Translations under genes and position numbers: made by a program
Shown: positions 630 through 50,033 of the stretch, one piece after another
How positions within the stretch are numbered: position 1 is the first letter of the stretch
How the letters are laid out: every line of letters begins with the position of its first letter
DNA from: Sphingobium sp. EM0848
Lineage (GTDB): Bacteria > Pseudomonadota > Alphaproteobacteria > Sphingomonadales > Sphingomonadaceae
Direction: 5' to 3'
Length of the DNA: 64,000 nt
Assembly: GCF_013375555.1 (NCBI RefSeq)
Contig: NZ_JABXWB010000001.1
Span: 2,678,501-2,742,500 of the forward strand
The notes under the pieces: generated by a model
Databases searched by the model: none
The model's input: only the letters and a program-made list of their open reading frames with translations
What the model was told of the DNA's origin: nothing

Positions 630-1070
630 TCAAAATGGTTTCACGATCACCGCGATCACGATGACGGCCGCGGCGATTCCGGGAATCTCATTGAGCAGGC
701 GCAATTGCTTTTCGCTGAGCGGCCGCTGCCCCCTGGCGAGCTTCTTCGTGTAACCGGCGATCCAGCCATGATAGCCGGAAAGCCCCAGCACGAAGAGCAG
801 CTTCAGGTGGAACCAGCCGAAATGCCAGGCGCCAATCTCCACCATCAGCATCAGGCCAAAGACCCAGACAAGGACAATGGAAGGGTTGAGGATGATCTTG
901 AGCAGCCGCCTTTCGCGGTCGATCCATTTTTTATCCTCTTCCGATCCCACCGGGCATTGCTGGTGATAGACGAAGAAGCGCGGCATCATGAACAGACCCG
1001 CCATCAGGAAGATGACGAAGATGACATGCGCGGCTTTGACCCACAAATAGGCTGCTCCCAGATAAGGCAT
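630..1070 (-). CDS. hemJ: protoporphyrinogen IX oxidase HemJ (CopD/UPF0093 family)
   Basis: HemJ is an inner-membrane enzyme that oxidises protoporphyrinogen IX to protoporphyrin IX, the penultimate step of heme synthesis, in bacteria lacking HemG/HemY. The 146-residue product has the usual length and about four hydrophobic helices (roughly 5-28, 58-77, 85-105, 128-145). The conserved His in the first helix (AAHVIF, residue 15), the YHQQ segment after it and the LKLLFVLGLSGYHGW stretch are family hallmarks. Its ATG overlaps the hemE stop (ATGA at 1069-1072), so the two heme genes are probably translationally coupled. Confidence 0.93.
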   Translation of the reverse strand: MPYLGAAYLWVKAAHVIFVIFLMAGLFMMPRFFVYHQQCPVGSEEDKKWIDRERRLLKIILNPSIVLVWVFGLMLMVEIGAWHFGWFHLKLLFVLGLSGYHGWIAGYTKKLARGQRPLSEKQLRLLNEIPGIAAAVIVIAVIVKPF

Positions 1071-2134
1071 CAGGCCGTCTCCCGACGTCGCACATAATGA
1101 AGCAGCGCTTCGACATGCTCGATCGGCGTGTCGGGCAATATGCCGTGGCCAAGGTTGAAGATATGCGGCCGCCCGGCAAAGGCGGTGCGGATGTTGTCGA
1201 CGGCCTCTTCCACCGCCTTGCCGCCGGCGATCAAGGCCAGCGGGTCCAGATTGCCCTGAACCGGCAAGCCTTCCGGCAGCATGCGATTGGCCCAGTGCGG
1301 ATCGACCGTTTCATCGACGCCGACAGCATCGACGCCCGTGCCGACCGCATAATCGGCCAGTTTCGCGCCCGCCCCCTTGGGGAATCCGATGACCGGAATC
1401 TCCGGGTGGAGGAGCTTTAATTTCTCCACGATGCGTTTGTTGGGTTGAATCACCCAGCGCTCGAACTCCAGCGGGGCGAGGCTGCCTGCCCAGCTGTCGA
1501 AGAGTTGCACCGCTTCCACTCCCGCCGCGATCTGGCCGCACAGATAGACGACGGTGGCATCGATGATCGCATCGATGATCGCGGCGAAGCGTTCGGGCTG
1601 CTGATAGGCGAGGCGGCGGGCTGCGCCCTGATCCTTGCTGCCCTGACCCGCCACCATATAGGTTGCGATCGTCCAGGGGCTGCCTGCAAAGCCCAGGAAG
1701 GTCACTTGGGGGTCGAGGGCGGCCTTGACCTGCCGGACTGTCTCATAGACCGCCTCAAAGCGGCTGAAATCGGGTTTAAGGGCCTCCAGCGGCGTCTCGG
1801 ACAGGATCGGGGCCAGACGCGGGCCTTCCCCGGTCTCGAACCAGAGATCCTGGCCCATGGCATAGGGCACGATCAATATGTCTGAAAAGAGGATCGCGCC
1901 GTCGAAGCCGAAGCGGCGCAAGGGTTGAAGAGTCACCTCCGCCGCTGTCGCGCTGTCATAGACCAGTTCCAGGAATCCGCCCTTTTCCGCCCTTAATGCG
2001 CGATATTCGGGGAGATAACGGCCGGCCTGGCGCATGAGCCACATAGGCGGCACATCGGGGCATGCACCCTTCAGGACCGAAAGAAGCGGCTTGGCGTGAG
2101 GCCCGTTGGAAAGGCCGGCATCTGATCCCGTCAT
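1070..2134 (-). CDS. hemE: uroporphyrinogen decarboxylase
   Basis: HemE removes four carboxylates from uroporphyrinogen III to give coproporphyrinogen III in the cytoplasm. The 354-residue protein has the N-terminal signature MWLMRQAGRYLPEYR (about residues 32-46), the GFAGSPWT motif near residue 148 and the GNLDP segment near 290. It runs leftward from the proposed replication origin and is followed by overlapping hemJ, forming a heme operon. hemE beside the origin is a conserved trait of alphaproteobacteria such as Caulobacter and Rickettsia. The start codon at 2134 gives full-length alignment with the family. Confidence 0.97.
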   Translation of the reverse strand: MTGSDAGLSNGPHAKPLLSVLKGACPDVPPMWLMRQAGRYLPEYRALRAEKGGFLELVYDSATAAEVTLQPLRRFGFDGAILFSDILIVPYAMGQDLWFETGEGPRLAPILSETPLEALKPDFSRFEAVYETVRQVKAALDPQVTFLGFAGSPWTIATYMVAGQGSKDQGAARRLAYQQPERFAAIIDAIIDATVVYLCGQIAAGVEAVQLFDSWAGSLAPLEFERWVIQPNKRIVEKLKLLHPEIPVIGFPKGAGAKLADYAVGTGVDAVGVDETVDPHWANRMLPEGLPVQGNLDPLALIAGGKAVEEAVDNIRTAFAGRPHIFNLGHGILPDTPIEHVEALLHYVRRRETA

Positions 2135-2278
2135 AAACTCTCTTATATTTAGATTCTTAGAAGGTAGTGGAGATTGTAGGGCGCTTGGCAGCGGGGTTTA
2201 TGCGCTGTGCCCGGATTTGCCAACAACTTGACTCCTTGGGGCGGCCGATTCCGATCCGAGTCAGTCTGCTTATCCCCG

Positions 2279-2287
2279 TTATCCACA
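2279..2287 (+). promoter_or_regulatory. DnaA box, perfect TTATCCACA
   Basis: The nine bases match the consensus DnaA box exactly. A weaker copy with two mismatches (TTATCCCCG) lies directly upstream at 2270-2278, giving closely spaced boxes on the same strand within the proposed origin. Confidence 0.85.
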
Positions 2288-2321
2288 GGCTGTGGGTGGA
2301 AAAATCCATCTGTTGGCGGGC

Positions 2322-2330
2322 TGTGGACAA
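2322..2330 (-). promoter_or_regulatory. DnaA box, one mismatch, opposite orientation
   Basis: TGTGGACAA on the plus strand reads TTGTCCACA on the minus strand, one mismatch from the consensus. It lies between the two perfect boxes of the proposed origin and points the other way. Confidence 0.7.
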
Positions 2331-2390
2331 GATTCCCGGAATCGAGGATGGCAATAAGTGCCTGATTTTGCCCGCAACCTATCCCTTGAT

Positions 2391-2399
2391 TTATCCACA
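2391..2399 (+). promoter_or_regulatory. DnaA box, perfect TTATCCACA
   Basis: Exact consensus box, 42 bases before the start of the PSRP gene. Being so near that start, it could also let DnaA influence transcription of the ppsR-maf-aroE-coaE operon. Confidence 0.85.
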
Positions 2400-2440
2400 G
2401 CCTCCCCACAGAGATATTCGGCCCTGAAGAGAAACCAGAA

Positions 2441-3262
2441 ATGTCGCGCATCCATCTTCACCTGCTTTCGGACTCCACCGGCGAAACCCTGGAAAATATC
2501 GCCAAGGCGGCGATCGGTGCGTTCGAAAATGTCGAGGCGGTACGCCATTTCTGGCCGATGGTGCGCTCTGATATTCATCTCGACCGGATCATGGAGGAGA
2601 TTGCCGCCAATCCGGGACTGGTGCTGTTCACCCTGTCCAACCACCAGTTGCGGCGGCGGCTGGAGACGCGCTGCCGGGCGCTGGGTCTGCCGCATGTGGC
2701 GGCGCTGGACAGCGTGACCGATGCGCTGTCCAACATATTGGGGCAGGAGACGCGCAACCGTCCGGGCCGCAAGCATATTCTAGACGAGGCCTATTTCGCG
2801 CGGATCGAGGCGATCCAGTTCACCATCGCCCATGACGATGGCGTGGGTCATGAAAATTGGGAGGAGGCCGATATCGTCCTGGCCGGCGTGTCGCGTGCGT
2901 CCAAGACGCCGACCTCCATCTATCTTGCCAATCGCGGCTACAAGACCGCGAACATCCCGCTGGTGGTGCAATCGCCGCCGCCGCGCAGCCTGTATTCGCT
3001 CCACCATCCGATGGTGGTGGGGTTGACGGTCAGTCCGGAGCGGCTGGTGCAGATTCGGCGCAATCGCCTGCTGTCTTTGAATCAGGCGCCGGAAACCAGC
3101 TATGTCGATCTGGAAAAGGTGCAGGAGGAACTGGCCTTTGCCCGGCGCATGTTCGCCGACAATGGCTGGCCGGTGATCGACATGACCCGCCGTTCGATCG
3201 AGGAAGCGGCGGCGGCCATCATCAATCTGTTCAACGACCGCGTTCTGGCGGAGGGAAGTTAA
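2441..3262 (+). CDS. ppsR: pyruvate,phosphate dikinase / PEP synthase regulatory protein (PSRP, DUF299; RP001 homologue)
   Basis: This family carries out ADP-dependent phosphorylation and Pi-dependent dephosphorylation of a threonine in PEP synthase or PPDK, switching gluconeogenic PEP formation off and on. The 273-residue protein starts with the typical MSRIHLHLLSDSTGET, and has the P-loop-like GVSRASKTPTS near residue 150, which marks the kinase/phosphorylase fold, then SPERLVQIR. It is the first plus-strand gene after the origin, the place of RP001 in Rickettsia and its homologue in Caulobacter, and is followed by maf after three bases. The target enzyme is not in the window. This PpsR is unrelated to the Rhodobacter photosynthesis repressor of the same name. 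Confidence 0.95.
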   Translation: MSRIHLHLLSDSTGETLENIAKAAIGAFENVEAVRHFWPMVRSDIHLDRIMEEIAANPGLVLFTLSNHQLRRRLETRCRALGLPHVAALDSVTDALSNILGQETRNRPGRKHILDEAYFARIEAIQFTIAHDDGVGHENWEEADIVLAGVSRASKTPTSIYLANRGYKTANIPLVVQSPPPRSLYSLHHPMVVGLTVSPERLVQIRRNRLLSLNQAPETSYVDLEKVQEELAFARRMFADNGWPVIDMTRRSIEEAAAAIINLFNDRVLAEGS

Positions 3263-3265
3263 GTC

Positions 3266-3871
3266 ATGCTAAAAACCCCGATCGTGCTGGCATCGCAAAG
3301 CGCGAGCCGCCGGGCGCTGCTGAGTGCGGCGCAGGTGCCGTTCGAGGCGCTGTCGCCGCAGGTGGACGAGGAAGCGGCCAAGGAAGCATTGCGCGCCGAT
3401 GGCCTTGATGCGCGCAAGCTGGCCGATGCGCTGGCGGAACTCAAGGCGCTGCGCGTGTCGCGGCGGGTGCCGGGCGGGCTGGTGTTGGGCTGCGACCAGA
3501 CATTGAGTCTGGAAGACGGCGCGATGATCGACAAGGCCGTCGACCGGGCGGACGCAGAGCGGATATTGAAGCTGCTCTCGGGCCGGGTGCATTATCTGCA
3601 CAGCGCGGCGGTGATGGCGCTGAATGGCGAGCCGATCTGGCGGCATATCGAACGGGTGCGGATGACGGTTCGGCCCTTGTCCGATGCCTTCATCGCCCAA
3701 TATCTCGACAGTGATTGGGAGGAATGCCGCTGGTGCGTCGGCTGTTACCGGATCGAAGGGCCGGGTGCGCAGCTTTTCAACCGGATCGAGGGCAGCCAGT
3801 TCGCGATTCAGGGTCTTCCCCTGCTGCCTTTGCTTGACTTCCTGCGGATAAGGGGCGTTCTGACAGCATGA
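3266..3871 (+). CDS. maf: Maf-family nucleoside triphosphate pyrophosphatase
   Basis: Maf proteins hydrolyse non-canonical or modified nucleoside triphosphates to monophosphate and PPi, cleaning the nucleotide pool; some members affect septum formation. The 201-residue sequence has the N-terminal LASQSASRRALL substrate-binding loop (about residues 8-19), the VDEEA acidic motif and GCDQTL with the conserved catalytic Asp near residue 76. The C-terminal EGSQFAIQGLPLLPLLDFLR helix is typical. It follows the PSRP gene by three bases and overlaps aroE by four (ATGA), so it belongs to one transcript. The exact nucleotide preference cannot be told. Confidence 0.93.
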   Translation: MLKTPIVLASQSASRRALLSAAQVPFEALSPQVDEEAAKEALRADGLDARKLADALAELKALRVSRRVPGGLVLGCDQTLSLEDGAMIDKAVDRADAERILKLLSGRVHYLHSAAVMALNGEPIWRHIERVRMTVRPLSDAFIAQYLDSDWEECRWCVGCYRIEGPGAQLFNRIEGSQFAIQGLPLLPLLDFLRIRGVLTA

Positions 3872-4689
3872 CCGACAAGCTCCCCTATGCAGAAGTGATC
3901 GGCGATCCGATCGCGCACAGCAAATCGCCGCTGATTCACAATTTCTGGCTCGATGCGCTGGGGATCGAGGCGGAATATAAGAAGACGCATGTGACCAGCG
4001 AGGGTCTGTCCGCCTATTTCCTCGCGCGCCGGGCCGATCCTGACTGGCTGGGCTGCAATGTCACCATTCCGCACAAGATCGCGGTGATGGACTATACCGA
4101 CGATCCGGGCGGCGTGCGGGAACGGATCGGGGCGATGAACACCATTGCCAGCGAAACCGGCGGGCCGCTGATCGGCACCAATACCGATGCGGGTGGATTC
4201 CTCCAGCCGCTGCTGCGCGACAAATGGAAAGGACAGAGCGCGGTACTGGTCGGGGCGGGCGGTGCGGCGCGGGCGATCTTGTTCGCGCTGACCAGCCTGG
4301 GCGTGTCGGACATCAACATCATGGTGCGCGATGCGGCCAAGGGACAGGCGCTGCTCGACCGGGCAGGGGTCGAAGGGCGGGTCATCGGCATGGGCGATAC
4401 GCTGCCCCAGGCCGATCTGCTGGTGAACAGCAGTTCGCTGGGCATGGTTGGACAGCCTGACTTGGATATCGATCTTGCGCCGCTGGCCAAGGACGCCATC
4501 GTCTACGACATCGTCTATGCGCCGCTCGAAACAACATTGCTCAAGGCGGCGCGGGCGAGGGGCCTCAAGACTCTCGACGGTCTGGAAATGCTGATCGGGC
4601 AGGCGGCGCTGGCCTTCGATATTTTCTTCGATGCCGAAGCTCCGCGTGAGCGGGACGAGGAATTGCGCGCTTTGCTGCTCGCGGCCTGA
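3868..4689 (+). CDS. aroE: shikimate dehydrogenase (NADP+)
   Basis: AroE reduces 3-dehydroshikimate to shikimate with NADPH in aromatic amino-acid synthesis. The 273-residue product has the shikimate-binding SKSPLIH motif (residues 18-24), the NVTIPHK segment with the catalytic lysine, NTDAGGF for substrate and cofactor binding, and a VGAGGAARAI dinucleotide-binding loop. The C-terminal GLEMLIGQAALAF segment is also family-typical. The ATG overlaps the maf stop, and coaE starts six bases after the stop, so PSRP-maf-aroE-coaE form a tight operon reading away from the origin. Confidence 0.96.
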   Translation: MTDKLPYAEVIGDPIAHSKSPLIHNFWLDALGIEAEYKKTHVTSEGLSAYFLARRADPDWLGCNVTIPHKIAVMDYTDDPGGVRERIGAMNTIASETGGPLIGTNTDAGGFLQPLLRDKWKGQSAVLVGAGGAARAILFALTSLGVSDINIMVRDAAKGQALLDRAGVEGRVIGMGDTLPQADLLVNSSSLGMVGQPDLDIDLAPLAKDAIVYDIVYAPLETTLLKAARARGLKTLDGLEMLIGQAALAFDIFFDAEAPRERDEELRALLLAA

Positions 4690-4695
4690 ATCGCC

Positions 4696-5289
4696 ATGAA
4701 GATTTATGGCCTCACCGGCTCCATCGGCATGGGCAAGTCCGCCGTCGCCGCGATGTTGCGGCGCGAAGGCGTGCCGCTGTTCGATGCCGATGCCGAGGTG
4801 CATCGCCTGCAAGGGCCGGGCGGCGCGCTGCTTCCTGCTATCGAGGCGCGCTTTCCCGGCACGACCGGGCCGCAGGGCGTCGACCGGGTGAAACTGGGCG
4901 CGGCGGTGTTCGGCCATCCGCAGGAATTGAAGGCGCTGGAAAGGATCGTCCATCCCGCGGTCCATGCGGCGCGGGCCGAATTTCTCCGCCGGAATCGGTC
5001 GCGCGCCTTTGTCGTGCTCGACATTCCGTTGCTGTTCGAGGGGCGGGGGGAGCGCAAGCTGGACGGTGTGATCGTCGTCAGCGCTCCAGCCTGGAAGCAG
5101 CGCAAGCGCGTGCTGGCGCGCCCGCGCATGACGGCGGCCAAATTCCGCCAGATTGTCAATCTGCAAACTCCCGACGCTGAAAAGCGGCGGCGTGCGGATT
5201 ATATCGTCCATACGGGAACGACCTTCGCCGGGACTCGCAGCCAGGTTCGCCGCTTGGTCGCTTGCCTTGGCGCGAAGACAGGTCGATAA
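4696..5289 (+). CDS. coaE: dephospho-CoA kinase
   Basis: CoaE phosphorylates the 3'-OH of dephospho-CoA, the last step of coenzyme A synthesis. The 197-residue protein has the P-loop GLTGSIGMGKS at its N-terminus (residues 5-15), the DADAEVH motif near residue 33 and the DIPLLFE segment near residue 112, which are the CoA-binding and lid elements of the family. It follows aroE by six bases and precedes dnaQ by about 30, as in other alphaproteobacterial origin regions. The upstream CoA-pathway gene panC also happens to lie in this window, on the other side of the origin. Confidence 0.95.
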   Translation: MKIYGLTGSIGMGKSAVAAMLRREGVPLFDADAEVHRLQGPGGALLPAIEARFPGTTGPQGVDRVKLGAAVFGHPQELKALERIVHPAVHAARAEFLRRNRSRAFVVLDIPLLFEGRGERKLDGVIVVSAPAWKQRKRVLARPRMTAAKFRQIVNLQTPDAEKRRRADYIVHTGTTFAGTRSQVRRLVACLGAKTGR

Positions 5290-5322
5290 GGTACAGTCCG
5301 GCAAGAGTCGTTGAAGAGGGCG

Positions 5323-6015
5323 ATGCGCGAGATTATTTTCGACACCGAAACGACTGGATTCGACCCCGCCTCGGGCGATCGCCTGGTCGAAATCGGGTGC
5401 ATTGAACTCATTAATCGGGTGCCGTCAGGCCGTACCTTCCACGCTTATTATAATCCACAGCGGTCGATGCCCGCCGCGGCCGAAGCTGTGCACGGGCTGT
5501 CGGACATTTTCCTGAAGGACAAGCCGCTCTTTTCGCATGGTGTCGAGGAGCTTCTGGCCTTTCTGGAGGACAGCCATCTGGTCGCGCACAATGCGCGTTT
5601 CGACTTTGGCTTCCTGAATCATGAACTGAAGCTCTGCGGTCTGGCTGAAGTGTCGATGGATCGGATGATCGACACCGTCGCCATCGCCCGTCAGCTTCAT
5701 CCAGGCGCCAAGCACAGCCTGGACGCCCTTTGCACCCGCTACGGCATCGACCGCAGCCATCGCATCAAGCATGGCGCCTTGCTCGACGCCGAATTGCTGG
5801 CCCAGCTTTACATCGAACTGACCGGCGGCCGTCAGATCGGCCTTGGTCTTGCACAGGAGGAAGAGAAACAAGGATTTGGGGCGGAACTCACGGCGCAAGT
5901 CGCGGTTCGCCCTGTACGTCCCGCGCGCGTCTTCACGGCCAGCGCGGAGGAGTTGGAGCGGCACGCAGCGTTCGTCGCGACGCTGGACAAGCCGCTCTGG
6001 TTCGAGGAGGCCTGA
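5323..6015 (+). CDS. dnaQ: DNA polymerase III epsilon subunit (3'-5' proofreading exonuclease)
   Basis: DnaQ is the proofreading subunit of the replicative polymerase. All three exonuclease motifs are present: FDTETTG with the catalytic Asp/Glu (residues 6-12), HNARFDFGFL with the Asp of Exo II, and HGALLDAELLA with the His and Asp of Exo III. The 230-residue length fits. I chose the ATG at 5323 because the family begins MREI-FDTETTG; an in-frame TTG at 5311 would add four residues and a GAAGAGGG purine tract lies just upstream of 5323. Location as the last gene of the PSRP-maf-aroE-coaE-dnaQ block is the conserved origin-proximal order. Confidence 0.95.
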   Translation: MREIIFDTETTGFDPASGDRLVEIGCIELINRVPSGRTFHAYYNPQRSMPAAAEAVHGLSDIFLKDKPLFSHGVEELLAFLEDSHLVAHNARFDFGFLNHELKLCGLAEVSMDRMIDTVAIARQLHPGAKHSLDALCTRYGIDRSHRIKHGALLDAELLAQLYIELTGGRQIGLGLAQEEEKQGFGAELTAQVAVRPVRPARVFTASAEELERHAAFVATLDKPLWFEEA

Positions 6016-31995: not shown

Positions 31996-33279
31996 GTGAC
32001 TGACACCATCTTTGCCCTGTCGAGCGGCGCGCCGCCTGCCGGGATCGGAATCATCCGCATCAGCGGGGCGCAGGCGGGCATGGCGTTGCAGGCGCTGGCG
32101 GGAATGGTGCCGATGGCGCGGCGGGCACGGCTGGCGCTGCTGACCGACCCGCGCGATGGTGCGGCGCTGGATCGCGCGCTCATTCTCTGGTTCCCCGGTC
32201 CCTCCACGGTCACGGGCGAAGATTTGGCCGAGTTGCACTGCCATGGCGGGCGCGCTGTCATTGCCGCCGTTGAGGAGGCATTGGGCGCGCTGCCCGGATT
32301 GCGCCGGGCCGAGCCGGGAGAGTTTACCCGCCGCGCCTTCGCCAATGGCCGCATGGACCTGAACGCGGTGGAGGGGCTGTCCGATCTGCTCGCCGCTGAA
32401 ACGCAGCAGCAGCGTCGGGCTGCGTTGCTGATGGCCGAAGGCCATTTTTCCCGGCGCATCGATGGCTGGCGCCGCTCCGTGCTGGAACTGTCGGCGCTGA
32501 CCGAGGCGGCGCTCGATTTTTCCGATGAAGATGACGTGCCCGACGCGAGTATAGAGGCGCGGATCGGGAACGAGATATGCGCGCTGGCGGGCGAGGTGGC
32601 GGCCATATTGACGGCGCCTTCCGCCGAGCGGTTGCGCGACGGCGTGCGGGTGGTCCTGGCGGGACCGCCCAATGCGGGGAAATCGACATTACTGAACCGG
32701 CTGGTCGGGCGAGATGCCGCGATCGTGTCGGACATTGCGGGGACGACGCGCGACCGGATCGAGGTGCCTGCGGCGCTGGGTGGGGTCGCTTTCCTCTTCA
32801 CCGATACGGCAGGACTGCGATTAGAGGCGGGTGACGCGATCGAAGCCATCGGCATGGATCGGGCACGTCTTGCTTTGGAAGCGGCGGATATCATCGTCTG
32901 GCTGGGCGATCGGGTGGATGTGCCGCGCGCGGATTCACTGCTGGTTGCCGCCCAATCGGATCGTTGGGAGGGTGATGACCGGCCCGGCCTTCACCTGTCC
33001 GCCCGAACGGGGGAGGGCATGGACGCGCTGGTGACGATGTTGCTGGAGCGAGCTGCGAAGCTGCTGCCGGGAGAGGGCGACTATGCCCTGCACAACCGTC
33101 AACGCGAGGGCGTTGGTCAATTGCATGGCCATCTGCTGGCGGCAGGCCAAGCGCGTGATCTGTTGATCGTGGCCGAAGAATTGCGGCAGGCCCGCAATGC
33201 CATTGATGCGCTCACGGGGCAGGCCAGTACGGAGGATATGCTGGACCGTCTGTTCGCGGGTTTCTGCATTGGCAAATAG
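31996..33279 (+). CDS. mnmE: tRNA modification GTPase MnmE
   Basis: MnmE, with MnmG, installs the cmnm5 group on U34 of tRNAs. The 427-residue product begins at a GTG (MTDTIFALSSGAPPAGIGIIRISG) and has the tetrahydrofolate-binding N-terminal domain, helical middle, G domain (GPPNAGKSTLLNRL, near 223; DTAGLR) and the C-terminal CIGK with the essential Cys. It is a bit short of the usual 450, mostly in the G-domain region. It heads the conserved mnmE-mnmG-rsmG-parA-parB block. A parS-like palindrome follows directly. Confidence 0.96.
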   Translation: MTDTIFALSSGAPPAGIGIIRISGAQAGMALQALAGMVPMARRARLALLTDPRDGAALDRALILWFPGPSTVTGEDLAELHCHGGRAVIAAVEEALGALPGLRRAEPGEFTRRAFANGRMDLNAVEGLSDLLAAETQQQRRAALLMAEGHFSRRIDGWRRSVLELSALTEAALDFSDEDDVPDASIEARIGNEICALAGEVAAILTAPSAERLRDGVRVVLAGPPNAGKSTLLNRLVGRDAAIVSDIAGTTRDRIEVPAALGGVAFLFTDTAGLRLEAGDAIEAIGMDRARLALEAADIIVWLGDRVDVPRADSLLVAAQSDRWEGDDRPGLHLSARTGEGMDALVTMLLERAAKLLPGEGDYALHNRQREGVGQLHGHLLAAGQARDLLIVAEELRQARNAIDALTGQASTEDMLDRLFAGFCIGK

Positions 33280-33284
33280 GCCGC

Positions 33285-33300
33285 TGTTCCACGTGGAACA
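33285..33300. promoter_or_regulatory. parS-like palindrome between mnmE and mnmG
   Basis: TGTTCCACGTGGAACA is a perfect 16-base palindrome. It matches the parS consensus TGTTNCACGTGAAACA apart from a single A-to-G change in the right arm. It begins five bases after the mnmE stop and ends 40 bases before the mnmG ATG. Confidence 0.75.
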
Positions 33301-33340
33301 GTTTTGACCCGGACGGCCCGAATCTGATAAGGGCCAGCCC

Positions 33341-35191
33341 ATGCGAACAAGCTATGATGTGATTGTGGTCGGCGGTGGCCACGCAGGTTGCGAAGCGGCC
33401 TCAGCGGCGGCGCGGAAGGGCGCGTCGGTTGCGTTGCTGACTTTTGAGAAGGCGACGGTCGGCGCGATGTCCTGCAATCCCGCCATCGGTGGTCTGGGCA
33501 AGGGGCATCTGGTTCGAGAGGTCGATGCGCTGGACGGTCTGATCGCGCGCGCCGCCGATGCTGCTGCCATTCACTATCGGATGCTGAACAGCAGCAAGGG
33601 GGCGGCGGTGCAGGGGCCGCGCGTCCAGGCCGATCGCAAGCGGTATCGGGCGGAGATTCATCGCCTGCTCGACGCGCAAAGCGGGTTGGAGATTGTCGAG
33701 GGCGAAGCGGTCGAACTGTTGCTCGATGGTGCGACGGTAAGCGGTTTGCGGTTGGCCGATGGACGGCGGCTTTCGGGACGAGCGGTGGTGTTGGCGACCG
33801 GCACCTTCCTCGGGGGAAAACTATTCCGTGGTGAGGACCTCATGGTAGGTGGCCGCACCGGCGAACGGGCGGCGACCGAATTGGGGGGTCAACTCCGTGC
33901 GCTGGATTTGCCCATGGCGCGGCTCAAGACGGGGACGCCACCCCGCATCGATGGGAGGACCATCGACTGGGCGCGTCTGGAAGAACAGCCGTCGGATAAG
34001 GCAGGCTGGACGATGTCTGCGCTTTCCTCCGGTCGCGTTCTGCCCCAGCTGTCCTGCGCCATCACTCGGACCAATGACAGAACCCATTCCATCATCCGCG
34101 ACGGGCTTGGGCGTTCGCCTCTGTTCAGTGGTGCGATCGAGGGACGCGGGCCGCGCTACTGCCCCTCGATCGAGGACAAGGTTCTCCGCTTTGGCGATCG
34201 TGATGGTCATCAAATCTTTCTGGAACCGGAAGGGTTGGACGATCATCTGGTCTATCCAAATGGCATCAGCACTTCGCTGCCAGCGGATATTCAATTGGCG
34301 CTGGTCCGATCGATGGCTGGACTGGAAAAGGCTGAAATCGTCGTTCCCGGCTACGCCGTCGAATATGACCATATCGACCCGCGTGCGCTGGATTCCACAT
34401 TGGAGGTCCGCGACGTGGCCGGCCTGTTCTGTGCCGGGCAGATCAACGGCACGACTGGATATGAGGAGGCTGCGGCGCAGGGTCTGGTGGCGGGCGCCAA
34501 TGCGGCGGCCCATGCCCTTGGAGAGGAGCCGCTGATTCTCGATCGAGCGAGCAGCTATATAGGGGTGATGATCGACGATCTCGTGTTGCAGGGGGTTACC
34601 GAGCCCTATCGGATGTTGACGGCCCGTGCTGAATATCGCCTCCGGTTGCGAGCCGATAATGCGGGAACGCGCCTTGCTCCCATTGGACGGGATCATGGCC
34701 TGTTGGGGCCGGAGCGCGCCGCTTATTATCATGCGCGGGATCGCGAACGGCGGTGGGTCGAAGAGGAACTGGCGCGGCCATTGTCGGCGACCGAGATGGC
34801 GCGGGCTGGGGCCGCGGTTCGGCAGGATGGTGCGCGTCGCTCGCTGTTCGATTGGGCGCGTTTTCCAGAGGTGAGCCGGGCGTTGTTGTTCGAGTTGGCT
34901 CCGTCGCTGGTAGAGGTGGAAAGCGACCTGCGCGAAGAGATTTTGGAGGATGCGCATTATGCACCCTATCTGGAGCGACAGCAGGCGGAGATCGCTGAAC
35001 TGCGGCGGAACGAACGGGTGGTGATCCCGGCCGATTTCGATTTTGGGACCATTGGGGGTCTTTCGACCGAAATGATTGAGCGACTGGATAAGGCGCGGCC
35101 TGATACGCTGGCGGCAGCAAGCCGTATCCGGGGCATCACGCCTGCTGCGCTGGCGGCGGTGCTGGTTCATATCCGGCGGCGCGCGGCGTGA
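33341..35191 (+). CDS. mnmG: tRNA uridine-5-carboxymethylaminomethyl modification enzyme MnmG
   Basis: MnmG (GidA) is the FAD-dependent partner of MnmE. The 616-residue protein has the FAD motif [19 protein letters not shown] (residues 8-26), the conserved [43 protein letters not shown], the active-site segment [16 protein letters not shown], and [23 protein letters not shown]. The C-terminal helical domain ends at [16 protein letters not shown]. Length fits the family. Its stop overlaps rsmG (GTGA at 35188-35191). A parS-like site lies in its leader. Confidence 0.97.
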
Positions 35192-35826
35192 CAGAGGAGG
35201 AAGCGCGGGGTTGGCTGGGCGAGCGTTTCCATGTTTCACGTGAAACATGGAAACGGCTTGAGGGCTATGTAGCCATCCTTCTCGATGAGATGGAGCGGCA
35301 AAATCTGATCGCGGAATCGACGCGTCCGCATATCTGGGCAAGGCATATTGTTGATTCTGCCCAGCTTATCCCGCTCGCAAGCGCGGCGGAGGAGGGGCCT
35401 TGGATCGATCTGGGATCGGGCGCGGGCTTGCCCGGAATCGTCGCCGCGATCCTGACTGACCGTCCGGTTCAGATGGTGGAATCGCGTCGTAAGCGGATCG
35501 ATTTTCTGAACGCCGTGATCAGCGATCTGGGCTTGGGCAGGGCAAGCGTCTTTGGTGGCCGTGTCGAAACCGTGCCACCCACTCAAGCGGCCATCATCAG
35601 CGCGCGGGCCTATGCGCCTTTGCCGCGTCTGCTTGAATCCGCGATCCATCTTTCCGATGAAAAGACGATTTGGGTGCTCCCAAAAGGACGAAATGCGCAG
35701 AATGAACTGGAGGTCGCGACTCGGACGTGGCAAGGTGTGTTCCACGTGGAACGCAGCGTGACTGATGCCGACAGCGCCATCATCGTTGCGCAAACCGTTC
35801 AATCCAGAAGGAAAGCCCGAGGATGA
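35188..35826 (+). CDS. rsmG: 16S rRNA (guanine527-N7)-methyltransferase RsmG
   Basis: RsmG (GidB) methylates G527 of 16S rRNA using SAM; its loss gives low-level streptomycin resistance. The 212-residue protein has the SAM-binding [15 protein letters not shown] (about residue 72) and the [19 protein letters not shown] motif. It starts with a GTG overlapping mnmG. The coding sequence contains two parS-type palindromes, at 35224-35255 near the 5' end and at 35738-35753, so it doubles as a segregation site. Its stop overlaps the parA start (ATGA). Confidence 0.95.
35224..35255. promoter_or_regulatory. parS, perfect core within a 32-base perfect palindrome, inside rsmG
   Basis: The core TGTTTCACGTGAAACA (35232-35247) matches the ParB-binding consensus exactly. 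The palindrome continues without mismatch for eight bases on each side, to 35224 and 35255. It lies about 600 bases upstream of parA, inside the coding sequence of rsmG. Confidence 0.92.
35738..35753. promoter_or_regulatory. second parS-like site inside rsmG
   Basis: TGTTCCACGTGGAACG, with the core palindrome GTTCCACGTGGAAC (35739-35752). It lies 70 bases before parA and differs from the consensus at two positions. Confidence 0.7.
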
Positions 35827-36605
35827 TCCAAATCGCCATTGCCAACCAGAAAGGCGGCGTCGGAAAGACCACCACCGCGATCAATCTGGCCACGGGCCTG
35901 GCGGCCACAGGTCTGCGCGTGCTGCTGGTCGACCTCGACCCACAGGGCAATGCGTCGACGGGTCTTGGTGTCCATCAGGCCGACCGCGCCCAGTCCAGCT
36001 ATGATCTGCTGGTTGGCAATTGCGCGCTGGAAGATGCGATCATCACCACGCGCGTTCCCAAGCTGGACATCGTTCCCGCCACCCAGGATCTGTCCGGCGC
36101 GGAAATCGAACTGATCGAATATGAGGAGCGGACCCATCGGCTGGAGCGAGTTCTCGCCGAAGCGCAGCCGGGGCGCTGGGATATTTGCCTGATCGACTGT
36201 CCGCCTTCGCTGGGTTTGCTGACCATCAATGCGATGGTTGCGGCTCAGTCGCTTCTGGTCCCATTGCAGTGCGAATTTTTCGCGCTGGAGGGATTGTCGC
36301 AGCTCCTTCAGACCGTCGAGCGTATCCGCGGCCGTTTCAATCCGGGCCTGTCGATCATGGGTGTGGCGCTCACCATGTATGATCGCCGTAACCGCCTGAC
36401 CGATCAGGTGGCCGACGATGTGCGCGCCTGTCTCGGCGATCTCGTCTTTTCCACCGTCATTCCCCGCAATGTGCGCCTGTCCGAAGCGCCCAGCCATGGC
36501 GTTCCGGCGCTCATCTATGATTTCCGTTGTCCGGGGTCGGAAGCCTATATGCGTCTGGCGCGCGAACTCATTGCGCGCCTGCCCCGTCAGGAGGTTGCTG
36601 CTTGA
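35823..36605 (+). CDS. parA: chromosome partitioning ATPase ParA (Soj)
   Basis: ParA is the DNA-binding P-loop ATPase that moves ParB-parS complexes during chromosome segregation. The 260-residue product begins [25 protein letters not shown] (deviant Walker A, KGGVGKT, residues 10-16), has the A' motif VDLDPQGNASTGLG, the Walker B DICLIDCPPSLGLLT and the C-terminal APSHGVPALIYD. The start overlaps the rsmG stop and the TGA overlaps the TTG start of parB. parS sites flank the operon. Confidence 0.97.
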   Translation: MIQIAIANQKGGVGKTTTAINLATGLAATGLRVLLVDLDPQGNASTGLGVHQADRAQSSYDLLVGNCALEDAIITTRVPKLDIVPATQDLSGAEIELIEYEERTHRLERVLAEAQPGRWDICLIDCPPSLGLLTINAMVAAQSLLVPLQCEFFALEGLSQLLQTVERIRGRFNPGLSIMGVALTMYDRRNRLTDQVADDVRACLGDLVFSTVIPRNVRLSEAPSHGVPALIYDFRCPGSEAYMRLARELIARLPRQEVAA

Positions 36606-37522
36606 GTGAAGAGAATTTGACGAAGCCCGCCAAGCGTCCCCAGGGGCTTGGCCGGGGTCTGTCTGCGCTGTTGGGTGATGTGGCGCGCGAAGAGCCGGTC
36701 GCGCCGGTTGCAACCTCCAATCCTTCCACCAAGGCAATCCAGAGCATTGAAGTCGCGCTGATCCAGCCGCATCCGGAACAGCCGCGCCGCCATTTCGACG
36801 ATGGCGCGCTACAGGAACTGGCGGACAGTATCGCCAAGCGTGGCGTTATCCAGCCGATCATTGTCCGGCCCCATGGTGGCGGATTCCAGATCGTTGCGGG
36901 TGAACGCCGCTGGCGCGCGGCTCAACGGGCGCAATTGCACCGCATCCCTGCCATTGTGCGCGATTTCGATGAAGCGGAAACGCTGGAGATCGCGCTGATC
37001 GAAAATATCCAGCGGGAGGATCTGAATCCGATCGAAGAGGCGGAAGCCTATCGCAAGCTGATCGCGGAATTTCATCATAGCCAGGAAGCACTTGGTCGAT
37101 TGGTCGGCAAGTCGCGCAGCCATGTCGCGAATCTGATGCGTCTGCTCGACCTGCCCGCGCCGGTGCAGCAGCAGGTGATCGAACAGAAGCTCAGCATGGG
37201 CCATGCGCGGGCTCTGATCGGGGCGCCAGATTGCGAAGCTCTGGCCCGGACGGTGGAAGCCAAAGGGCTGTCCGTCCGTGATACCGAGCAGCTTGTCCGC
37301 CGCGCCAAGACGGGCGATACGGCTTCAACCCGTCAGCGCAGCCCTGCGGCCAAGGATAATGATCCCGACATCGTCGCGTTGGAGCAGCATCTGGCGGACA
37401 TATTGGGTGTGAAAGTCGACATCAGCTATGGCGCGAATGGCAACGGCATGCTGTCGCTGCATTATTCGACGCTCGATCAGCTCGATATGTTGTGCCAGCG
37501 GCTGTCCGGCGAGCGTATCTAA
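36602..37522 (+). CDS. parB: chromosome partitioning protein ParB (Spo0J)
   Basis: ParB is a CTP-dependent clamp that loads at parS and spreads. The 306-residue product starts at the TTG at 36602, overlapping parA (TTGA), with the usual LGRGLSALLGDV. The CTPase/ParB-N domain includes the NPRRHFDD-like QPRRHFDD, GVIQPIIVRP and GERRWRAAQ; IALIENIQREDLNPIEEAEAY is the linker. The helix-turn-helix is LGRLVGKSRSHVANLMRLL (about residues 162-180). The C-terminal domain would dimerise. A clear terminator follows. Confidence 0.97.
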   Translation: MSEENLTKPAKRPQGLGRGLSALLGDVAREEPVAPVATSNPSTKAIQSIEVALIQPHPEQPRRHFDDGALQELADSIAKRGVIQPIIVRPHGGGFQIVAGERRWRAAQRAQLHRIPAIVRDFDEAETLEIALIENIQREDLNPIEEAEAYRKLIAEFHHSQEALGRLVGKSRSHVANLMRLLDLPAPVQQQVIEQKLSMGHARALIGAPDCEALARTVEAKGLSVRDTEQLVRRAKTGDTASTRQRSPAAKDNDPDIVALEQHLADILGVKVDISYGANGNGMLSLHYSTLDQLDMLCQRLSGERI

Positions 37523-49514: not shown

Positions 49515-50033
49515 TCAGGGCGCACCTGCACCCTGATCGTCCCGCGCGCCGCCGCAACCATTCAGCGTTCCCTCGCCAAAGGCCACTGCTACCCGGTCGG
49601 ACCAGATGGCATTGCTCATCCCGTCGCTGCATGGTCCTTCGCTTACCGTCATGGAAAAGCCGCCGCCCAAATAGCGGATCGCCCGCCTGTCGGCATGGCG
49701 CGAGACGGTGAAGCGGACAGGGGCTTTGTCCGGGCGCTCCAGCGTGGCGGTCGATCCCTTCACCGTCACGGCCCAGAAGGGTTCGGTCCCCATGGCCCGA
49801 TAGTGATTCTGAGTAGGCCGATCAGGGGTGGGAGAGGGCGCGGAATGTGCAGTCGCTGTTTCACGTGGAACCGCTTCCGAAATATTTTCGGCCGCCTGAT
49901 TCACGATTTCGTTCGGAATGATGATGGGCACTGAGGCCTGGGGTCGGGCGACATTGGTAACGGGTACGTCCTTCCCGCCGCTGCCGCAGCCCGTCATCAT
50001 CAGGATGAGGGCAATGGGGGAGAGCCGTCTCAC
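49515..50033 (-). CDS. lipoprotein with COG3650-like C-terminal domain
   Basis: A 172-residue lipoprotein, lipobox LMMTGCGSG (Cys about residue 16), then a low-complexity linker rich in Ala/Pro/Thr and a C-terminal domain with HYRAMGTEPFWAVTVKGSTATLERP and CSDGMSNAIWSDRVAVAFGEGTLNGCGG, which resembles the COG3650/META-HslJ-related heat-shock-type domain. The function is unknown. The GTG at 50033 overlaps the tag stop (GTGA). A parS-like sequence lies inside its linker at 49857-49872, so this stretch may be constrained as DNA. Confidence 0.8.
   Translation of the reverse strand: MRRLSPIALILMMTGCGSGGKDVPVTNVARPQASVPIIIPNEIVNQAAENISEAVPRETATAHSAPSPTPDRPTQNHYRAMGTEPFWAVTVKGSTATLERPDKAPVRFTVSRHADRRAIRYLGGGFSMTVSEGPCSDGMSNAIWSDRVAVAFGEGTLNGCGGARDDQGAGAP
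49857..49872. promoter_or_regulatory. remote parS-like site inside the COG3650-like lipoprotein gene
   Basis: TGTTTCACGTGGAACC has the TGTTTCACGTG half and core of parS, differing from TGTTTCACGTGAAACA at two positions (A to G in the right arm, and the last base). It lies 14 kb beyond parB, in a coding linker. Confidence 0.55.

Follow-up and report, generated by a model that had tools for sequence, protein, structure and literature searches.

Where does replication of the main chromosome of Sphingobium sp. EM0848 begin? The question is raised by two places on the same contig: a 306-bp gap (positions 2135-2440) between the divergent genes hemE and PpsR/DUF299, in which an initial annotation had located the chromosomal origin, and the dnaA reading frame, which starts at base 1 of the contig. 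The genome (5.64 Mb) is in five contigs; the window, i.e. the whole 64,000-bp stretch of DNA analysed, covers positions 2,678,501-2,742,500 of contig C1 (3,220,177 bp), on which the gap occupies 2,680,635-2,680,940. Our data make the gap the very probable DnaA origin of the main chromosome. The hemE-linked arrangement has already been published for Caulobacter, Rickettsia and the Sphingomonadaceae, and the locus is ordinary in kind; what is new is that some weaker box positions are conserved, that the gap lacks exact CtrA sites and that GANTC sites are densely clustered in it.

A conserved gap between hemE and PpsR

The flanking order hemE / PpsR / maf / aroE / coaE / dnaQ given by the initial annotation was recovered by NCBIfam matches (Table 1). 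It was said there to be the known origin neighbourhood of Caulobacter and Rickettsia, in agreement with the published hemE-COG1806 origin of these bacteria, which carries DnaA, CtrA and IHF sites (PMC1914354). Positions linked to hemE are not restricted to them: a hemE-linked origin is reported for Novosphingobium PP1Y (PMC4059872), and for Sphingopyxis and most Sphingomonadaceae in DoriC (PMC4741004), and these Ori-Finder/DoriC origins share the position, have DnaA boxes that are conserved and were proposed to contain an unwinding element (PMC4741004, PMC4059872). As expected for an alphaproteobacterial oriC of the hemE-COG1806 type, the gap studied here is located between divergent hemE and COG1806/PpsR and is richer in AT than its surroundings (0.49, versus 0.31-0.44, or GC 0.562-0.692, in the 1-kb bins of the window). 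The only reading frames overlapping it are mechanical ORFs of the ORF list (e.g., 2149-2451 minus and 2167-2427 plus).

Table 1. Features of the origin gap and its surroundings, in window positions.
Feature	Position	Strand	Evidence or remark
hemE	1070-2134	-	left boundary gene, divergent; NCBIfam TIGR01464, 386.9 bits
oriC of main chromosome (very probable), 306-bp gap	2135-2440		skew, parS, conserved neighbourhood, box cluster
AT-rich edge beside hemE, candidate unwinding-element start	2135-2160		78-83% mean column identity, genus alignment
GANTC (CcrM) site	2152-2156		21/28 genus sequences
Trinucleotide run, then GC-rich bases	2161-2184		genus consensus near GGATGATGGAGATAGTAGG; alignments
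Inverted repeat TTGGCA...TGCCAA with inner GGG/CCC pairing	2185-2223		87-99% mean column identity per 10 bp, 28 genus sequences
Dyad TTGACTC-N23-GAGTCA	2228-2263		two GANTC sites around variable spacer
GANTC sites of dyad	2230-2234, 2258-2262		each in 28/28 genus sequences, though bases between vary
GANTC site in variable spacer	2247-2251		11/28 genus sequences
DnaA box, exact TTATCCACA	2279-2287	+	sequence match
Degenerate DnaA-box position facing first box	2291-2299	-	TGTGGATGG or TGTGGATAA in relatives; genus alignment
DnaA box, one mismatch TTGTCCACA	2322-2330	-	sequence match; TGTGGATAA in several relatives shown
GANTC site directly abutting reverse DnaA box	2331-2335		24/28 genus sequences
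GANTC site	2339-2343		sequence
DnaA box, exact TTATCCACA	2391-2399	+	sequence match; exact box here in 28/28 genus sequences
Conserved CCACAGAGAT, possible weak box	2405-2415	+	genus alignment
PpsR/DUF299 (COG1806, RP001)	2441-3262	+	right boundary gene; NF003742, 320.2 bits
maf, aroE, coaE, dnaQ	3266-6015	+	conserved origin neighbourhood; NCBIfam matches
mnmE, mnmG, rsmG	31996-35826	+	NCBIfam
parS-like site TGTTCCACGTGGAACA	33285-33300		pattern match; between mnmE and mnmG
parS-like site TGTTTCACGTGAAACA	35232-35247		pattern match; inside rsmG
parS-like site, one mismatch	35738-35753		pattern match; inside rsmG
ParA-like ATPase	35823-36605	+	P-loop and place before parB; no NCBIfam match at E 1e-30
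ParB	36605-37522	+	TIGR00180, 198.3 bits
parS-like site, one mismatch	49857-49872		pattern match

The hemE-PpsR gap was present in 141 of the 147 loci examined, the window's own included (kinship is ignored in all conservation counts), and divergent hemE was found upstream of PpsR in 28/30 genus, 67/69 family, 20/20 order and 26/28 class loci. The genus set comprises 30 loci, including that of the window, drawn from 37 genomes in which a match was obtained; the family set, 69 of 114 non-own matches, one of which (G028) is of the same genus as the window; the order set, 20 of 23 loci (G049, G053 and G056 were left out); and for the class, 28 additional loci were taken out of 66 matches. Among the six loci without the gap, L026 and L029 are cut by the contig start, L300 has too little PpsR sequence, and in L282, L258 and L264 the 0.9-1.5 kb upstream showed no hemE. 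The PpsR gene was missing from the matches in 1/61, 4/119 and 29/95 of the genomes searched. A further 80 named loci, all with the gap, overlap the genus set and were excluded from the totals. The PpsR of the window shares 99% identity with its counterparts in S. estronivorans AXB and in a strain that was deposited under the name Novosphingobium sp. Chol11. In three relatives (G008, G011 and G049) the contig begins upstream of PpsR at a distance of 32-172 bp, as though it had been rotated to this place.

Elements within the gap

The alignment of the 28 genus sequences shows conserved blocks at the inverted repeat (2185-2223), at both half-sites of the dyad (2228-2234 and 2258-2263), at the pair of boxes in 2279-2299, at the reverse box together with the GANTC abutting it (2322-2335) and at TCCCTTGNTTTATCCACAG (2382-2400); the spacer 2235-2254 and the stretch 2335-2364 are far more variable. 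The AT-rich edge that had been described beside hemE is indeed present, but short. Next to it, the segment 2161-2184 weakly resembles, by eye, the published DnaA-trio/GC-rich arrangement (PMC8235120), the full layout of which consists of a DUE-proximal DnaA box, a GC-rich spacer, DnaA-trios and an AT-rich run (PMC8235120, PMC10225481). The box adjoining the trio-like run is degenerate in Sphingobium and better in two Novosphingobium gaps.

A part of the left half, within 2161-2263, could alternatively serve transcription, either as a promoter or leader of hemE or as a small RNA comparable to CcnA, which is transcribed from within the Caulobacter origin (PMC8959179). The conserved inverted repeat speaks for such an element, its consensus fold reaching a z of -3.4 on the plus strand and -2.1 on the minus strand relative to shuffled columns; this score, however, includes no covariation count, and most of the repeat is near-invariant across the genus. 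Moreover, no sigma-70-like promoter or terminator was called in 2050-2560, no Rfam family matched in the gap, and the genus alignment shows no conserved -10 in the spacer of the TTGACTC dyad. We consider a transcribed element less likely than not, and it may coexist with oriC.

Strand asymmetry and the position of dnaA

The initial annotation had noted that no dnaA is present nearby and that methods based on the proximity of dnaA could misplace the origin. Both statements hold: dnaA is located approximately 540 kb from hemE round the circle, at base 1 of C1, the assembly of which has evidently been rotated to begin there, and a plain cumulative skew plot drawn from base 1, without detrending, has its minimum at approximately 5 kb and thus points at dnaA. 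This plot and the start of the assembly with the dnaA reading frame are what favors an origin at dnaA, the hemE gap being in that case merely a divergent promoter region with DnaA boxes. The minimum near 5 kb is, however, due to the net G excess of the contig and to the start at base 1. When the cumulative GC skew was detrended over the sampled DNA (60 stretches of at most 20 kb plus the window, 39.1% of C1), its minimum fell in the 5-kb bin 2,675,000, in favor of the minimum that had been predicted for the locus, and the plot begun at 1.335 Mb, from the terminus, gave the same bin. Within 2.48-2.90 Mb, a region continuous save for a short N part, the minimum lies at 2,677,919, 2.7 kb left of the gap. 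A two-arm change-point fit (40 stretches plus the window) placed the best origin at 2.50-2.56 Mb (SSE 1.2597), followed by 2.68 Mb (1.2637), and was worse with the origin fixed at 0, the dnaA end (1.364). The preference of this coarse fit for 2.50-2.56 Mb over 2.68 Mb is slight, and counts against the hemE origin.

The polarity of GGGNAGGG, the KOPS oligomer of E. coli, was followed in the same sampled DNA, where 195 plus and 136 minus sites were counted. The plus:minus ratio is 167:23 on the right arm and 28:113 on the left arm, and the cumulative curve has its minimum in the bin 2,665,000, although a second minimum, at approximately 2.96 Mb, is almost as deep. Since the strands are mixed at 2.56-2.67 Mb, and since the GC skew has its maximum nearer 1.6 Mb versus 1,330,000 for GGGNAGGG, the terminus is located with less certainty than the origin. 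The second minimum, the mixed strands, the disagreement of the maxima and the sampling of 39.1% of the contig also weigh against the hemE origin. On C1 the motif marks the two arms clearly and, stretch by stretch, is visibly more strand-biased than the GC skew. The gap is found, in the 39.1% of the contig sampled, at the switch of strand asymmetry where an oriC of the hemE-COG1806 type is expected.

Putative segregation sites

Four parS-like sites (TGTTNCACGTGNAACA, at most one mismatch) were found in the 5.64-Mb genome, all of them inside the window at 31-47 kb from the hemE gap and none near dnaA; the reversed control of the pattern gave no match in the same 5.64 Mb. The pair inside rsmG sits just before the parA-like and parB genes, the former being presumably a ParA-like ATPase in view of its P-loop and of its position before parB. 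The gap is thus close to both parS and parAB, as expected of an origin of the hemE-COG1806 type. The nearest exact matches of the box TTATNCACA to dnaA are at C1:667,151 and C1:3,023,151. On the sampled skew and on the parS and box evidence, an origin at dnaA was rejected, and we regard it as very improbable.

DnaA boxes

The initial annotation had read in the gap two exact DnaA boxes and one reverse box with a single mismatch, and the three are all there. The two exact boxes are the sole exact TTWTNCACA matches in the 64-kb window. At least two such matches over 64 kb are unsurprising (31/100 shuffles), so the evidence lies in the clustering of the boxes. At least three boxes, each with no more than one mismatch, occurred in 28 of 73,140 sliding 306-bp segments (step 17, sampled C1 DNA), and these 28 correspond to two places, the hemE gap (three boxes) and C1:1.50 Mb (four boxes); the cluster in the gap is beyond chance, in agreement with a hemE-COG1806 origin. 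Two exact boxes are nevertheless few, which counts against the origin reading. Also against it, exact boxes become rarer with growing distance from the genus: they are present in 28/28 genus gaps (75 boxes in total), 23/67 family gaps (TTATCCACA), 12/20 order gaps and 11/26 class gaps, and at least two boxes with at most one mismatch are found in 46/67 family-set gaps.

In the whole genome TTATNCACA occurs 33 times, and three pairs less than 300 bp apart were found on C1: in the hemE gap, at 1,039,245 and at 1,500,247. A denser box cluster at another locus had been named beforehand as an argument against the hemE gap, and literally such a cluster exists at 1,500,247, with four boxes (at most one mismatch) in approximately 60 bp, so that box density alone would have missed the hemE origin. 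An origin, or a second origin, at C1:1,500,247 to approximately 1,500,300 has in its favor these four boxes spaced by approximately 12 bp, more than in the hemE gap, but was rejected as very improbable, the place being off the sampled skew minimum, with no parS-like site near, its repeats being readable as the end of a 93-codon ORF, and its left-hand gene being found in 0/20 of the relatives' tandem-box loci compared.

The boxes at 1.50 Mb (L008:1501-1556) follow directly a 391-codon ORF, and the 93-codon ORF that ends in them has a signal-peptide-like stretch; the array could be a site that titrates DnaA or a codon repeat that arose by chance. The pair at C1:1,039,245 belongs to another kind of element, in which tandem DnaA boxes TTATCCACAnTTATCCACAG head a conserved, apparently non-coding stretch of approximately 500 bp (L004:1501 onward, aligned with 19 relatives' loci, L315-L334 except L328). 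The tandem-box pattern is present in 30/81 genus genomes. Within the element lie a pair of GANTC sites, GGTGAGACCATC and the core GCGCGAAAGTGAACGTCGGGCATCG, and visual inspection suggests a hairpin with a T run that resembles a terminator. Rfam gave no match for the element in five loci, and a tRNA-Thr gene was seen in 4/7 of the loci scanned. The element may represent a so far undescribed small RNA whose promoter carries DnaA boxes and CcrM sites. In Sphingobium sp. EM0848, a group II intron match (RF00029, L004:22-976) lies upstream of it, accompanied by an ORF that we label reverse-transcriptase-like from its sequence. Ten ORFs besides dnaA, on C1, C4 and C5, give weak matches to the DnaA Pfam model; six have equal score and length across three contigs, and we guess these ORFs to be IstB-type helpers of IS21.

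CcrM and CtrA sites

The gap contains six GANTC sites (at 2152, 2230, 2247, 2258, 2331 and 2339), compared with 0.49 per 306 bp in the sampled C1, and at least six sites were reached in only 31 of the 73,140 sliding 306-bp segments, the origin's own segments counted in. The enrichment is shared by the family: in the 67 family-set gaps (approximately 53 genera, kinship ignored) GANTC was present in 67/67, with 358 sites observed versus 85 expected from base composition, and ranked first of 136 gapped tetramers, its density being 5.34 per 348 bp in the gap versus 0.87 in the flanks. In the genus set, 156 sites were observed versus 32 expected (first rank). In other families the excess was 41 versus 27 for the 20 order-set loci (rank 20) and 70 versus 44 for the 26 class-set loci (rank 12). 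A general richness of intergenic DNA in GANTC was rejected as the cause. With a crude ORF mask, 353 intergenic-like pieces of at least 100 bp had 2.29 sites per kb, and the gap, with 19.6 per kb, exceeds the maximum of 15.0 per kb reached among 171 pieces of at least 200 bp, two values compared from separate numbers, as the mask scored the gap itself as coding.

Two traits of the cluster mark the genus set. The full TTGACTC-N23-GAGTCA dyad is found in 26/28 genus origins and 0/67 family-set origins; anywhere in the genome, it was found in 4/199 family genomes, including two of the four same-genus genomes in that search, and was thus rejected as a family-wide origin signature. A GANTC site abutting a DnaA box was observed in 23/28 genus and 2/67 family-set origins.

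A CcrM gene is present in the genome (NF050803, 613 bits, below the model cut-off of 830), with the RAMA Pfam domain over cut-off and with 6pbd, CcrMI, as the closest solved chain, and a GcrA gene is present as well.

No exact CtrA site (TTAA-N7-TTAA) was detected in the gap 2135-2440. This differs from Cori of Caulobacter crescentus, which has the same flanking genes and DnaA boxes, and several GANTC sites as well, but in addition five CtrA sites and one IHF site (PMC1914354, PMC3973325, PMC8959179). Exact CtrA sites, which not every origin of the hemE-COG1806 type possesses, were found in 2/28 genus, 0/67 family, 0/20 order and 4/26 class gaps. With one mismatch, 4 sites were observed versus 1.6 expected in the genus, 12 versus 6.8 in the family, 3 versus 13.7 in the order and 11 versus 9.3 in the class, and the genus and family values make weak CtrA sites possible.

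In E. coli, too, oriC contains densely clustered methylation sites. The dense sites for a cell-cycle methylase observed here are what a methylation-timed origin of the Dam/SeqA kind would have, the enzyme and the motif being different (CcrM and GANTC); for E. coli, SeqA and the GATC cluster are named in PMC10225481. CcrM sites are also part of the origin module of ori2 in Agrobacterium, where, according to a section heading, over-initiation from ori2 occurs in CcrM-depleted cells (PMC11514494); ori2 is a repABC secondary origin, unlike the DnaA origin considered here, and repABC origins are GANTC-rich (PMC6090056). The excerpts of the Sphingomonadaceae oriC accounts at hand (PMC4741004, PMC4059872) make no mention of GANTC, and the TTGACTC dyad of Sphingobium was absent from all the family-set gaps. 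Our literature search returned no report of GANTC enrichment in sphingomonad origins, though an earlier mention is possible.

The GANTC cluster could make initiation sensitive to methylation and replace the CtrA block of Caulobacter. We propose, as a tentative scheme, that in the Sphingomonadaceae the control of initiation might have moved from CtrA occlusion to CcrM methylation, hemimethylated DNA barring re-firing until CcrM is made late in the cycle, as it is in Caulobacter (PMC8116508). This scheme, which would be the alphaproteobacterial counterpart of Dam/SeqA, is based on the family-set origins devoid of exact CtrA sites and provided with a dense GANTC cluster, to which Sphingobium adds the fixed dyad and the site abutting a DnaA box. 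In Caulobacter, CcrM is described as not required for initiation, its overproduction leading to abnormal chromosome content (PMC6090056), and this statement speaks against a simple carry-over of methylation timing.

Proposed working of the origin and significance

Taken together, the sampled skew, the parS-like sites, the conserved neighbourhood and the box cluster support the gap as the chromosomal origin, as the initial annotation had claimed. The explanation that best accounts for the whole, to which we give a probability of roughly 0.94, is an oriC in the gap, opened by DnaA at its hemE-side edge, with bidirectional forks and with segregation of the copies by ParB and parS. In the proposed sequence of events, (i) DnaA would bind two strong boxes (2279 and 2391), the reverse box (2322) and the weaker conserved positions between them; (ii) it would open the AT-rich edge on the hemE side, from which two forks would leave in both directions; (iii) ParB, bound to the parS sites 31-47 kb away, would segregate the copies; and (iv) methylation of the GANTC cluster by CcrM is a candidate timer of initiation. 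The DnaA steps, including the side of unwinding, we infer from the membership of this origin in its family, and the methylation step from the density and the conservation of GANTC.

A practical consequence concerns the assembly, since taking base 1 as the origin would give wrong skew, gene-dosage and growth-rate estimates for C1. The added value of the present analysis resides in the GANTC cluster, together with the finding that the family-set origins lack exact CtrA sites. In the Sphingomonadales dnaA is reported not to be near the ori, and Sphingomonas melonis reportedly tolerates losing CtrA (PMC8116508). If the GANTC cluster does time initiation, it could explain how replication is kept to once per cycle in such sphingomonads that tolerate CtrA loss (PMC8116508), and the role of CcrM at a DnaA origin would become directly testable.
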